Shown here: piece after piece, positions 17,890 through 61,071 of the stretch | Position numbering within the stretch: position 1 is the first letter of the stretch | Layout of the letters: each line of letters begins with the position of its first letter | Assembly (NCBI GenBank): GCA_902777325.1 | Contig: CACYTH010000012.1 | Coordinates: 1 to 64,000 of the forward strand | Length of the DNA stretch: 64,000 nucleotides | Source: an uncultured Coriobacteriaceae bacterium | GTDB taxonomy: Bacteria; Actinomycetota; Coriobacteriia; Coriobacteriales; Atopobiaceae | Direction: 5' to 3' | Notes under the pieces: model-generated | What the model was told of the DNA's origin: nothing | The model's database searches: none | What the model saw: the letters and a program-made list of their open reading frames with translations, nothing else | Position numbers and translations under genes: made by a program

Positions 17890-20549
<2,660 letters not shown>

Positions 20550-34712: not shown

Positions 34713-36206
<1,494 letters not shown>

Positions 36207-41895: not shown

Positions 41896-42348
41896 ATGCT
41901 TCGTATCGCAATCTGCTGTGGCGGCGGCTTCTCGTCTTCGACCATGGCGGCTCACCTCAACAAGCAGCTGGCCGAGAGCGAGTACAAGGATGACGTGTTC
42001 TTGGAGTTCATTCCGTTCTCCATGCTGTGGGGCGAGTCTGCGGCCTTCTCGTCGGGCACTGTGAAACAGCGCCAGGATGAGGTCGACGTTGCCCTGTGCT
42101 GCCCGCATCTCGAGTACCCCGCCAAGACTGCCGTGAAGGAAGGCCGCCTGCACATTCCCGTGTTCATCCTGCCCATGCGCCTCTACGGCCAGATCAACAT
42201 CGAGGGCGTCATCGAGGAGGCTGAGGACGTGCTCGAGCTCTGGAACAACGGCACGCCCAACCCGGTCGTCTTCCCCGACGAGCCGCGCTCGATGAACGCC
42301 GCACGCAACGTCAGCCATCGTCGCTGGCTGGCACAGCAGGGCAAGTAG
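41896..42348 (+). CDS. PTS EIIB-like protein (lactose/cellobiose type), unaccompanied
   Basis: 150 residues. The phosphate loop AICCGGGFSSSTMAAHL has the cysteine and small-residue pattern of lactose/cellobiose EIIB, and VALCCPHLEY with the later LPMRLYGQINIEG matches the rest of the domain. It carries an extra C-terminal tail of about 40 residues (LELWNNGTPNPVVFPDE). No EIIA or EIIC is next to it; the RpiR gene is divergent. It may work with an EIIC elsewhere or act as a phosphorylation sensor. AAGGGGCACGAC precedes the ATG, and a strong terminator follows. Confidence 0.85.
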   Translation: MLRIAICCGGGFSSSTMAAHLNKQLAESEYKDDVFLEFIPFSMLWGESAAFSSGTVKQRQDEVDVALCCPHLEYPAKTAVKEGRLHIPVFILPMRLYGQINIEGVIEEAEDVLELWNNGTPNPVVFPDEPRSMNAARNVSHRRWLAQQGK

Positions 42349-46049: not shown

Positions 46050-47540
<1,491 letters not shown>

Positions 47541-47594
47541 GGAAAGGTTCGCGTCACACTGTGGCGTCGGAATAATCTGGTAGGGGGTAAGCGC

Positions 47595-49079
47595 ATGAGC
47601 GAGTTGGGCCAGGCGTTCCGCACGTGGGTCGCTGCGCGTAAGGTGCAGGGCTGCACGACGACGGTCGTGGACGACGACCACATCACCATCAAGCATGATT
47701 GCATGACGGGACAGGTCAACTTCTACACCTTCGATGACATGCCGGAGGTCGTGGAGCTGGCGGTAACCGAGGACGCGACGGGCGAGAACCGCTTCTTCCT
47801 GCACTTCGAGCTCGAGGACCTCGACCGTGCCAAGCAGCTGTTCGGCGAGATGGCTGAGGTGCTCCAGGAGCCGTGTGATGCGGACGGAACCCGCGTGCTC
47901 TTGTGTTGTACCGTGGGCATGACCACCACGATGTTTGCCGGAAAGCTGAGCCAGGTGGCCGAGACCCTCTCGCTCGACTACAGCTTCGAGGCCAAGGCGC
48001 TCGAGGACGCCAAGCGCGAGGGCGGCAGCTACGATGCCGTCATGCTTGCCCCGCAGGTGGGCTTCCGTCGTCGGGAGGTCGCCCAGGCCTTCCCCGAGGC
48101 GGTCGTCTTCGAGATCCCAGCGCGCATCTTTGCCCGCTACGACGGTGCGGGTGCCCTGCGCATGCTGATGGGGCTTCTGGGAGACGACTCGCTGGCGGCG
48201 CCTGACCCCAGCGACCTGCGGATGATGCGCAGCTCTCGCAAGGACTTGCCCAACAAGGAGGTTCTGATCATCTCGGTCATCCACCATCCGGGTGGCGCGA
48301 CCATTGCCTGGCGTCTCTTCGATAACTTCAAGCTGATTGCATCCGACGAGGTGTATAAGCCCAAGGTCGAGTTCCGTGACCTCGAGGACGTCATCGCCAC
48401 GATGCGCTTCCGCGGCATCGACCTCGCCGACATCGACGCGGTGGGCGTTGCGGTGCCGGGGGCTGTGGACTTTGGCACCGTGACCTTCTCGGGCTATGAC
48501 CTGGGCGGCGTCAACATCGAGAAGGGCCTCACCGACAAGTTTGGCCTCAGGGTGTTTGTGGACAACAACGCCAATGCTGGGGCTGTGGGCTGCTATGTGA
48601 GTCAGGACACGTATGACAGCGTGACGCTACATACCCAGCAGGTCGGAACGATGATCGGTGGGCAGGGCACCGTGTGCAACGGTCACCTGCTGCGTGGCCA
48701 TCGTGGCATGGCGGGTGAGCTGAGCGGCCTCAACTGGCAGGTGTTCCTGCATGCCGAGCAGTTTGCGGACGTCGAGTTGGACGTTGACTCGCACAAAGAG
48801 CTGCTCGCCTACTACGAGGAGCAGGCCTCGTGGAGCGGCGAGTCGATGCTGCCGATACTGGCAACGATGCTCCAGGCTGCCATCGCGGTTGCGGCACCCG
48901 ATGCCATCTACATCAGCTACGACCTCGTAGATGACATGGAGGCCCTGCGCAAGGAGCTGGCCAAGAGCCTGCCCGAGGATCTCATCCCCGACCTCATCCA
49001 TATCACCGACTATCGCGAGAAGATCTTCCTGGGCGAGATGGCGCTCGTGCTGCAGCGTCTCAGCACCAGCGCGACGTAG
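47595..49079 (+). CDS. EIIB-ROK fusion protein with degenerate sugar-kinase motifs
   Basis: 494 residues in three parts. Residues 1-97 are an unrecognised alpha/beta domain. Residues about 98-197 match a lactose/cellobiose PTS EIIB: RVLLCCTVGMTTTMFAGKL with Cys105 at the phosphorylation position, AVMLAPQVGFRRREV, and the C-terminal helix. Residues about 221-494 match the ROK (repressor/kinase) fold: GVAVPGAVDFGTV, FVDNNANAGAVG, MIGGQGTVCNG and GHRGMAGELSGL. The ROK part has lost key features: no DIGGT ATP loop, Asn325 where kinases have the catalytic Asp of N-D-A-N, and no CxCGxxGC zinc site. There is no recognisable helix-turn-helix. Probably a phosphorylation-linked sugar sensor or regulator acting on the neighbouring GH1 pathway; a kinase role is unlikely. 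Function is inferred. Confidence 0.85.
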   Translation: MSELGQAFRTWVAARKVQGCTTTVVDDDHITIKHDCMTGQVNFYTFDDMPEVVELAVTEDATGENRFFLHFELEDLDRAKQLFGEMAEVLQEPCDADGTRVLLCCTVGMTTTMFAGKLSQVAETLSLDYSFEAKALEDAKREGGSYDAVMLAPQVGFRRREVAQAFPEAVVFEIPARIFARYDGAGALRMLMGLLGDDSLAAPDPSDLRMMRSSRKDLPNKEVLIISVIHHPGGATIAWRLFDNFKLIASDEVYKPKVEFRDLEDVIATMRFRGIDLADIDAVGVAVPGAVDFGTVTFSGYDLGGVNIEKGLTDKFGLRVFVDNNANAGAVGCYVSQDTYDSVTLHTQQVGTMIGGQGTVCNGHLLRGHRGMAGELSGLNWQVFLHAEQFADVELDVDSHKELLAYYEEQASWSGESMLPILATMLQAAIAVAAPDAIYISYDLVDDMEALRKELAKSLPEDLIPDLIHITDYREKIFLGEMALVLQRLSTSAT

Positions 49080-49600: not shown

Positions 49601-51271
49601 ATGACCAAGAGACAAGACCTCGCCTGGTGGCAGAAGACCATCGCCTATGAGATCTACCCCAAGAGCTTCTATGACACGGCAGCCCAGGGGAGCGGAACCA
49701 TCGCCGGCATCACTGCCAAGCTCGACTACCTGGCCTCGCTGGGGGTCGGTGCCATCTGGATCACCCCCTGCTACAAGAGCCCCATGGTGGACAATGGCTA
49801 CGACGTGCAGGACTACCGCCAGATCGACCCTTCCTTCGGCACCATGGCAGACATGGACGAGCTGATTGCCAAGGGCAACGAGAAGGGCGTGCGCGTGGTG
49901 ATGGACCTCGTGTTCAACCACACGTCCGAGCAGTGCGCCTGGTTCCAGGAGTCGCGCAAGAGCCGTGATAACGACTATGCCGACTGGTACATCTGGCGCG
50001 ACGCCCGCCCGGACGGCAGCGCCCCCACCAACTGGCGCTCCATCTTCGGCGGCAGCGCCTGGGCGTGGTGCGAGGAGCGCCAGCAGTACTACCTGCACAC
50101 CTTTGCCCCGCAGCAGCCCGACCTCAACTGGGAGAACCCCGATGTCCGCCGCGCCCTCATCGACATAGCCAACTTCTGGGCCGACAAGGGCGTGGGCGGC
50201 TTCCGCATCGACGCAATCACCTACATCAAGAAGCCGGCTGAGTTCGTGGACGGACCCGCCGATGGCGAGGATGGCATGTATGCCGTGCATGCCGCCACGG
50301 CAAACACCCCCGGAATCCTCGACTTCCTGCACGAGTTCAAGGCAGCCGTGCGAGACGGCCGCGACATCTTCCTTGTGGGCGAGGCCAACGGCGTGGCCGC
50401 CGACGAGCTGGGCGACTGGGTCGGCGAGCGTGGCGTCTTTGACATGCTCTTCGAGTTCAGCCACACCAAGGCAGTGTCGTGCGAGGACGAGGTCTGGTGC
50501 CGGCCGATACAGTGGAAGCTCACCGACCTCAAACGCGTGCTTGCCGAGAGTCAGGCAAACACCGCAGACAACGGCTGGTACCCCATCTTCTTCGAGAATC
50601 ACGACCAGCCTCGCTCGACCGTCAACTTCTTCCGCTGCGAGGGGAGTACCGCCGACAAGGCCAAGGCCTTGGGCACCGTACTGCTTACGCTGCGCGGCAC
50701 CCCGTTTGTCATGCAGGGCCAGGAGCTTGGCTATGCCAACCGCGTGTGGAAGTCCCTCGACGAGTTCGACGACCTGCAGACGCGCTCGCAGTACGAGTTT
50801 GCGCTGACCGAAGGCCGCACCGAGGCCGAGGCGCTTGCTGGCTGCAACCGCTTCAGCCGCGACAATGCCCGCACGCCCATGCAGTGGAACGATGGCAAGA
50901 ACGCGGGCTTCTCGGAGGCAGACACCACCTGGATGCCCATACATGACAACTACGCTCAGATCAATGTGGAGGCGGAGTCTGCCGACCCCAACTCCCCGCT
51001 CTCCTGGTACCGCAGGCTGGCGGCGCTGCGAGCGGAGCGCGACGAGCTTGTTGCCGGAAGCTTCGAGGAGCTGATGGCCGAAGACGAGCAGGTCTATGCC
51101 TTCCGTCGCCAAGGGGAGGGGAGTGCGGCCGTCGTGCTGGCAAACCTCTCGGACGAGCCCGCAGCGTATGATGCGGCGCTGGTTGCTGGCATGAAGCTGC
51201 TTGTTGGCACGCACGGAGAGGCTGAGGCGGGCTCGTTGCGCCCGCTCGAAGCCGTGGTGTACGGGAGCTAA
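49601..51271 (+). CDS. Alpha-glucosidase, GH13 (oligo-1,6-glucosidase type)
   Basis: 556-residue cytoplasmic GH13 enzyme for alpha-glucosides such as isomaltose, isomaltooligosaccharides or sucrose-like sugars. Region I is MDLVFNHTS, region II GVGGFRIDAI with the nucleophile Asp, region III IFLVGEANG with the acid Glu, region IV FFENHDQPR with the transition-state Asp. The N-terminal AWWQKTIAYEIYPKSFYD is typical of the GH13_31 group. ATG at 49601 has GAAGG upstream; a TTG at 49586 is the alternative. It is preceded by a LacI operator and followed by the lacI-family gene and an ABC sugar importer, so it degrades what the importer brings in. Confidence 0.95.
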   Translation: MTKRQDLAWWQKTIAYEIYPKSFYDTAAQGSGTIAGITAKLDYLASLGVGAIWITPCYKSPMVDNGYDVQDYRQIDPSFGTMADMDELIAKGNEKGVRVVMDLVFNHTSEQCAWFQESRKSRDNDYADWYIWRDARPDGSAPTNWRSIFGGSAWAWCEERQQYYLHTFAPQQPDLNWENPDVRRALIDIANFWADKGVGGFRIDAITYIKKPAEFVDGPADGEDGMYAVHAATANTPGILDFLHEFKAAVRDGRDIFLVGEANGVAADELGDWVGERGVFDMLFEFSHTKAVSCEDEVWCRPIQWKLTDLKRVLAESQANTADNGWYPIFFENHDQPRSTVNFFRCEGSTADKAKALGTVLLTLRGTPFVMQGQELGYANRVWKSLDEFDDLQTRSQYEFALTEGRTEAEALAGCNRFSRDNARTPMQWNDGKNAGFSEADTTWMPIHDNYAQINVEAESADPNSPLSWYRRLAALRAERDELVAGSFEELMAEDEQVYAFRRQGEGSAAVVLANLSDEPAAYDAALVAGMKLLVGTHGEAEAGSLRPLEAVVYGS

Positions 51272-52683: not shown

Positions 52684-54001
52684 ATGGCAAACAACAATAT
52701 TACCCGTCGTTCGTTCATTGGTGCGGCCGGAATCGCGGCCTCCACTCTTGCCGCATGCGGTGGCGCAGGTGGCGCAGGCGAGGGTGGCGGTGACGCCGCT
52801 GCCGGCAAGGTGTACTGGCTCAACTTCAAGCCCGAGCTCGACGAGACCCTCCAGACCATCAAGGACATGTACAAGGAGGCCAAGGGCATCGAGCCCAAGA
52901 TCGTGACCGCTGCGTCGGGAACCTATAGCCAGACCCTCACCTCCGAGATGGACAAGACCGACGCGCCGACCATGTTCGTCATCGGCAATGCCGCCGGCGT
53001 CAAGGAGTGGGGCGACTACGCGCTGGACCTCAAGGGCACGGCCATCGAGTCGGAGCTCAACACCGATGCCTACAACCTGTATGACGAGAGCGGCAAGCTC
53101 GTCTCCATGGGCTACTGCTACGAGTGCTACGGCATCGTCGCCAACGCCGACCTCATCGCTCGCCAAGGCCGGCCACGACATCGCTGACATCAAGGACTTC
53201 GCAAGTCTCGAGGCCGTCGTCACCGACATCCACAGCCGTGCCGACGAGCTGGGCTTTGACGCCTTCGTCGCCACCGACATGGACGACTCGTCCAGCTGGC
53301 GCGTGACCGGCCATCTTGCCAACCTCGAGTACTTCTACGAGGAGCGCGATGACGGCGGCTGGGACGAGTGCCCCGCCACCATCAAGGGCACCTACGTCGA
53401 GAACTACAAGAAGCTGTACGACCTGGCCATCAACAACTCAACGGTGGAGCCCAAGACGCTGGCCACCGGCGGTCATGACCCTGCGCAGCAGTTCAAGGAT
53501 GGCAAGGCCTGCTTCTTCTTCACGGGCTCCTGGGACTACGCCGACCTCGCGGCTGCTCAGCCGAACATCCACATGCTCCCGTACTATTGCGGCGTCGACG
53601 GCGAGGAGAAGGCTGGCCTGAACTGCGGCACCGAGAACTGCTGGGCCGTGAACGCCAACGCCTCCGAGGCCGATCAGCAGGCCACCATCGACTTCATGGT
53701 CTGGCTGGTGACCGATCCTGACGCGTCCGCACTGCTCGTCGAGCAGCTGGGCATCATGCCCTTCAACAACGCCGCCGAGTCCACCAACGGCTTCCTCAAC
53801 GACGCCGCCGACTACACCTCCGACGGTTGCTACGTGATGGACTGGGCCACCAACTACCAGCCCAACGTGGACGATTACCGCGCCGCCCTCGTGAGCGCCC
53901 TCAATGCCTACAACGCCAATCCGTCCGACAAGACCTGGGCAGACGTCCAGACCGCTTTCGTCGATGGCTGGGCCACCCAGTACAAGAAGGCCAACGCCTA
54001 A
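52684..54001 (+). pseudogene. Sugar ABC transporter substrate-binding lipoprotein, frameshifted
   Basis: The N-terminal frame (52684 onward) encodes a lipoprotein signal (RRSFIGAAGIAASTLAACGG) and the first lobe to NADLIA, then runs into a premature end at 53187. The family match resumes in another frame at LAKAGHDIADIKDF and continues to the normal stop at 54001. The break lies at 53157-53163 (ATCGCTCGCC), where one extra base or two missing bases would restore ADLI-LAKAG. Together the two parts make about 438 residues, the normal length of a MalE/UgpB-type binding protein. There is no slippery heptamer, so programmed frameshifting is unlikely. A sequencing error is possible because the rest of the operon is intact. 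Confidence 0.85.

Positions 54002-59493: not shown

Positions 59494-61071
<1,578 letters not shown>

Follow-up and report, generated by a model that had tools for sequence, protein, structure and literature searches.

It is established that PRD regulators can sense through EIIB domains with a phosphorylatable cysteine (PMC8560693, PMC11537053), and the virulence regulators AtxA, Mga and RivR require their EIIB part to form multimers (PMC8560693). The ROK repressor Mlc is controlled through direct contact with IICB-Glc (PMC11393339). The protein described here, P0001, is encoded in a 64,000-nucleotide stretch of DNA (the window) from a rumen bacterium and joins a lactose/cellobiose-type EIIB domain to a ROK-fold domain in one chain of 494 residues. 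It can be likened to the PRD regulators MtlR, CelR and Mga, in which a conserved-cysteine EIIB serves as sensor and not as transporter, but it has a ROK fold and lacks both the PRD and a DNA-binding domain. With Mlc and NagC (1z6r, 3bp8) it shares the ROK fold (Z 19), the Mlc structure 3bp8 being among the fold matches of the P0001 model, and Mlc is regulated by an EIIB domain that binds it directly. P0001 differs from these repressors, however, in lacking a helix-turn-helix and in carrying an EIIB within its own chain, one of the lactose and not the glucose type. The best fold matches are ROK sugar kinases (6jdc, 2aa4, 3vov; Z 20-22), but unlike them P0001 has neither the DxGGT nor the zinc motif and carries Asn at the position of the catalytic Asp. 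The features of the locus are as follows.

46065..47540, plus strand: GH1 gene, 6-phospho-beta-glucosidase-like, below the NCBIfam cut-off, 54 nt upstream of P0001 (Pfam, NCBIfam, neighbour comparison)
47580..47588, plus strand: probable ribosome-binding site GTAGGGGGT, ahead of the ATG at 47595 (inferred by reading the sequence)
47595..49079, plus strand: EIIB-ROK protein P0001, 494 aa (ORF translation, Pfam, AlphaFold model, fold comparison)
47595..47885, plus strand: N-domain, residues 1-97, predicted alpha-beta5-alpha, no Pfam match (AlphaFold model, Pfam)
47886..48185, plus strand: lactose/cellobiose-type EIIB domain, residues 98-197 (Pfam, NCBIfam, fold match)
47907..47909, plus strand: Cys105 codon; the residue aligns with the phosphorylated EIIB Cys and is invariant in 54/54 representatives (family alignment)
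48051..48056, plus strand: Pro153-Gln154 codons, EIIB PQ motif, invariant (family alignment)
48255..49076, plus strand: ROK-fold domain, residues 221-494, lacking the DxGGT and zinc motifs (Pfam, fold match, motif scans)
48567..48569, plus strand: Asn325 codon, at the ROK catalytic Asp position (family alignment)
49601..51271, plus strand: GH13 gene, trehalose-6-phosphate-hydrolase-like, below cut-off, 521 nt downstream of P0001 (Pfam, NCBIfam, neighbour comparison)

An earlier note on this DNA had the reading frame, its coordinates and its motifs right, re-reading of the frame again giving 494 residues. The plausible ribosome-binding site contains TAGGGGG; promoter and terminator scans returned nothing above chance. 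Only PF02302 and PF00480 were matched above the curated Pfam cut-offs, with neither a PRD, a DNA-binding domain nor any output domain found in P0001, and the NCBIfam matches were to the same relatives, all below their cut-offs. The AlphaFold model, built with 46 family sequences, had a mean pLDDT of 86 and a pTM of 0.80.

Pfam placed PTS_IIB (PF02302) at residues 100-167 (E 3.5e-7, 31.2 bits, cut-off 23.6), and the match to the NCBIfam subfamily TIGR00853 scored 41.2 bits, under its cut-off of 110. In the model, residues ~98-195 superposed on the cellobiose/chitobiose EIIB structures 1iib, 1h9c and 2wy2 (Z 16.0-16.6, rmsd 1.7-2.0 over ~103-106 residues). The active-site Cys and the Pro-Gln motif are common to these proteins and P0001, but in the latter the domain is fused within a longer chain and the Ser-Thr of the loop is replaced by Thr-Thr. 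To count conservation, 81 full-length members of the family were aligned and 54 representatives below 80% identity were retained. Cys105, Thr110 and Pro153-Gln154 were invariant in 54/54, at a mean column identity of 45%. The EIIB part had a dN/dS of ~0.1 among five P0001 orthologues, against roughly 0.15-0.3 for the rest of the chain; dN was also lowest in the EIIB part, which therefore shows the slowest change at the protein level. Because Cys105 is invariant and dN/dS in the EIIB part is low, the EIIB-ROK architecture is not a product of chance. Cys105 is a putative acceptor of phosphate from EIIA. The proposal that residues 98-197 are an EIIB with Cys105 and a PQ motif is borne out, as both the fold and the conserved cysteine on which it had been made to depend were recovered.

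The ROK family (PF00480) was matched at residues 233-376 (E 1.5e-12, 48.1 bits, cut-off 22.9), and comparison of the model with solved structures aligned residues 221-490 with ROK kinases and repressors at Z up to 22. The DxGGT ATP motif was missing from its alignment position in all representatives, the one regular-expression match among 170 frames (L158) lying elsewhere in the domain, and the zinc motif CxCGxxGC occurred in 0/170 frames. Loss of these two motifs, first remarked on in P0001, is thus family-wide. The replacement of the catalytic Asp by Asn is correct for P0001 (Asn325) but does not extend to the whole family: 45 of the 54 representatives have Asn at this position, 7 have Asp and 2 have Ser, so that, judged from the alignment, the catalytic Asp has not been lost in every member. 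Part of the sugar cleft is kept (Asn324 in 49/54, Asn327 in 46/54, Glu375 in 45/54), although the replacement of Glu375 in 9/54 means that the ROK pocket is not uniformly conserved.

Residues 1-97 match no Pfam family, and the full-chain fold matches, which list only ROK and EIIB structures, are uninformative on this domain. The predicted alpha-beta5-alpha arrangement and the lack of any Pfam helix-turn-helix agree with the earlier reading that P0001 has no such motif. DUF3284 (PF11687), the chbD of PMC12791066, was dropped as an identity for the N-domain since Pfam gives no match, and His70 was dropped as a phosphate acceptor since it is Arg in 6/54 representatives.

The search for the EIIB plus ROK architecture that the earlier note had suggested recovered a real, widespread and multi-copy family of about 100 members. 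Among 60 relatives it was found in 18/18 members of the genus and in two further genera. A search of 398 genomes from the class recovered it in 29, which belong to four genera of one family; counting g2 from the 60-relative search the total is five genera. In the genomes searched, the family is thus confined to five genera of a single taxonomic family, probably Atopobiaceae. The relatives retrieved by name are metagenome-assembled genomes from the rumen, with the labels uncultured Coriobacteriaceae or Atopobiaceae. Some rumen Atopobiaceae carry 3-7 full-length copies per genome, and the source genome carries five. No description of an EIIB-ROK fusion was found in the open-access papers searched, and the family is apparently previously undescribed.

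Several variants of this architecture were observed. In one subgroup of ~740 aa, from genera g1, g2 and g46, the chain has a metallophosphoesterase at its N-terminus (PF00149, E 5e-6), encoded in frame with the rest. L061 and L062 encode a related phosphoesterase separately, in a gene that lies 4-6 nt downstream of EIIB-ROK, and in L127, L128 and L130 such a gene follows GH170 with EIIB-ROK absent. In one genome, G349, the arrangement is split: a 207-aa protein comprises the N-domain region and EIIB without ROK, and two genes downstream on the same strand lies a 329-aa ROK protein which, among the EIIB-less ROK frames in hand, is the nearest to the ROK part of the family (77.5 bits against 13.7-44.9). 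This protein carries an N-terminal extension and is not a kinase; its first ~60 residues read like a winged helix, Pfam reporting only ROK there. A relative in G364 lies at the end of a contig, is split over two reading frames and has neighbours other than those in G349. Outside the five genera, G029 has a lone N-domain frame (L160, 4327-4518) beside a GH1 fragment, which is apparently a remnant of the family.

With moderate confidence we interpret P0001 as a soluble adaptor, which would sense through Cys105 whether the PTS is phosphorylated and act through protein partners; the family as a whole probably reads how busy sugar uptake is. When uptake of PTS sugars is low, phosphorylated lac-type EIIA would phosphorylate Cys105, and when sugar flows the phosphate would drain to the transporter's own EIIB and leave Cys105 free. 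Phosphorylation of the cysteine may alter the packing of EIIB against ROK, comparable to the docking of unphosphorylated EIIB-Glc on Mlc. Because P0001 has neither a DNA-binding domain nor an intact kinase site, its output would be protein-protein contact, and that of the fused subgroup could be control of the attached metallophosphoesterase. The sensor put forward in the earlier note is retained here as far as it rested on the EIIB/pseudo-ROK architecture, and is favoured by the small EIIBs that operons hold of their own; its link to a GH1 pathway was not supported.

The distribution of PTS partners bears on this interpretation. Lac-type EIIA was found in 23/23 near-complete genomes with the family against 64/78 without it (Fisher p 0.02, relatedness not corrected), which gives weak support because lac-type EIIA is common in the taxonomic family anyway; it was not found in five incomplete genomes with EIIB-ROK. 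In G207 and G258 (genus g46) the sole lac-type EIIA found belongs to a PTS operon that has an EIIB and an EIIC of its own, and the several EIIB-ROK copies therefore share one EIIA. Separate ordinary small EIIBs are present in PTS operons with the family in L061, L067 and L110, and such operons have one wherever their assembly is intact. The small EIIBs of several PTS operons with a member inside or alongside argue against the family being simply the EIIB of a transporter. Such an EIIB beside EIIA and EIIB-ROK is more in line with a sensor than with a transport subunit, that is, a protein whose EIIB part serves lac-type EIICs devoid of their own EIIB and whose ROK part selects or anchors. We regard this second explanation as unlikely, even though the EIIB active-site residues are intact, the source genome has 18 PTS_EIIC matches above cut-off against few EIIBs, and two of its EIICs (C12:70625 and C6:178941), which adjoin GH1 genes, have no EIIB or EIIA nearby. 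Besides the EIIBs within the EIIA-EIIC operons, stand-alone EIIBs are present in the source genome (C23:18437 and C3:107721), three to seven copies would be many for such a subunit, and neither a ROK fold nor the N-domain is known as a part of EIIB.

That P0001 is a structural or scaffolding protein, its EIIB and ROK parts retained for dimerisation only, is a still less probable explanation. It would be in line with the multimer requirement in AtxA, Mga and RivR, and ROK proteins are dimers; it leaves unexplained, however, why Cys105, Thr110 and Pro-Gln are invariant in every copy. Least probable, and in our judgement very doubtful, is a PEP-powered soluble sugar kinase in which phosphate would pass from EI through HPr and EIIA to Cys105 and on to a sugar in the ROK cleft, replacing ATP, since although the ATP motif is gone, the sugar cleft is partly kept and the subgroup behind an MFS symporter and a HUMPS gene (9 genomes) has no intervening kinase, the catalytic Asp is Asn in most representatives, the pocket Glu varies and we know of no precedent for an EIIB donating phosphate to a soluble acceptor fold. 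Were this reading true, the PTS would phosphorylate sugars brought in by other transporters.

If the adaptor interpretation of P0001 is correct, a single chain in which an EIIB sensor is coupled to a ROK fold would be a new way to read the PTS and the covalent counterpart of the Mlc-EIIB contact. The family would merge EIIB sensing of the PRD type with contact of the Mlc type, in the absence of PRD and DNA-binding domains, and one subgroup would drive a phosphoesterase. The signal from EIIB to ROK would also become testable within a single protein.

The earlier note had suggested that P0001 may pass its signal to the pathway of the adjacent GH1. This suggestion was not supported: GH1 lies directly upstream in 3/6 P0001 orthologues with a visible upstream gene (the window, G002 and G003), and the neighbours vary greatly across paralogues and genera. 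We surveyed the neighbours of 98 members, of which 15 have no same-strand neighbour within 300 nt. Many members in genus g46 lie beside unrelated genes. The fused subgroup has lac-type EIIA with GH170 upstream, and operons with lac-type EIIA and GH170 contain EIIB-ROK or the phosphoesterase fusion in L041, L066, L067, L069, L072, L077, L080 and L090; in L060 the family operon includes EIIA, GH1 and HPr. Other neighbours are a HAD phosphatase, GH1 or GH13, and GH13 genes also adjoin members in G005, G012 and genus g19. Some subgroups are therefore genuinely tied to phosphorylated-sugar metabolism; for the P0001 gene, with GH1 upstream in only half of the orthologues, the tie is weak.

Two further subgroups have neighbours of other kinds. 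In L043 (12652-14589) and nine relatives, an MFS sugar symporter and a gene of the HUMPS family of phosphosugar enzymes precede EIIB-ROK. Another subgroup follows STAS and HATPase_c_2, SpoIIE-HATPase or SDF transporter genes (L083, L092, L093, L059); the STAS, SpoIIE and HATPase genes are partner-switching signalling genes.

Some additional observations concern other genes. At 41896-42348 the window encodes a stand-alone EIIB-like protein of 150 aa (PF02302, E 2.6e-8) with a CCGGGFSSS loop and no adjoining EIIC, which is kept in G002 (L115). In the C22 PTS operon the EIIC part lies between two near-identical small EIIB genes (L041, 3121-3302 and 6572-6744); G000, G002 and G003 lack the middle of these genes, G011 has N there, and further contigs end at this point, probably through assembly collapse. 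The phosphoesterase-fused copy was dropped as the only EIIB of this operon since relatives hold an intact small EIIB there. In the window, a frame change, due to sequencing error or decay, splits the gene of an ABC sugar-binding protein into two overlapping frames (52684-53187 and 52988-54001), and an intact single-frame relative of 434 aa is found in L045 (946-2250). Finally, the window holds four GH1 genes, at 19083-20549, 34749-36206, 46065-47540 and 59596-61071.
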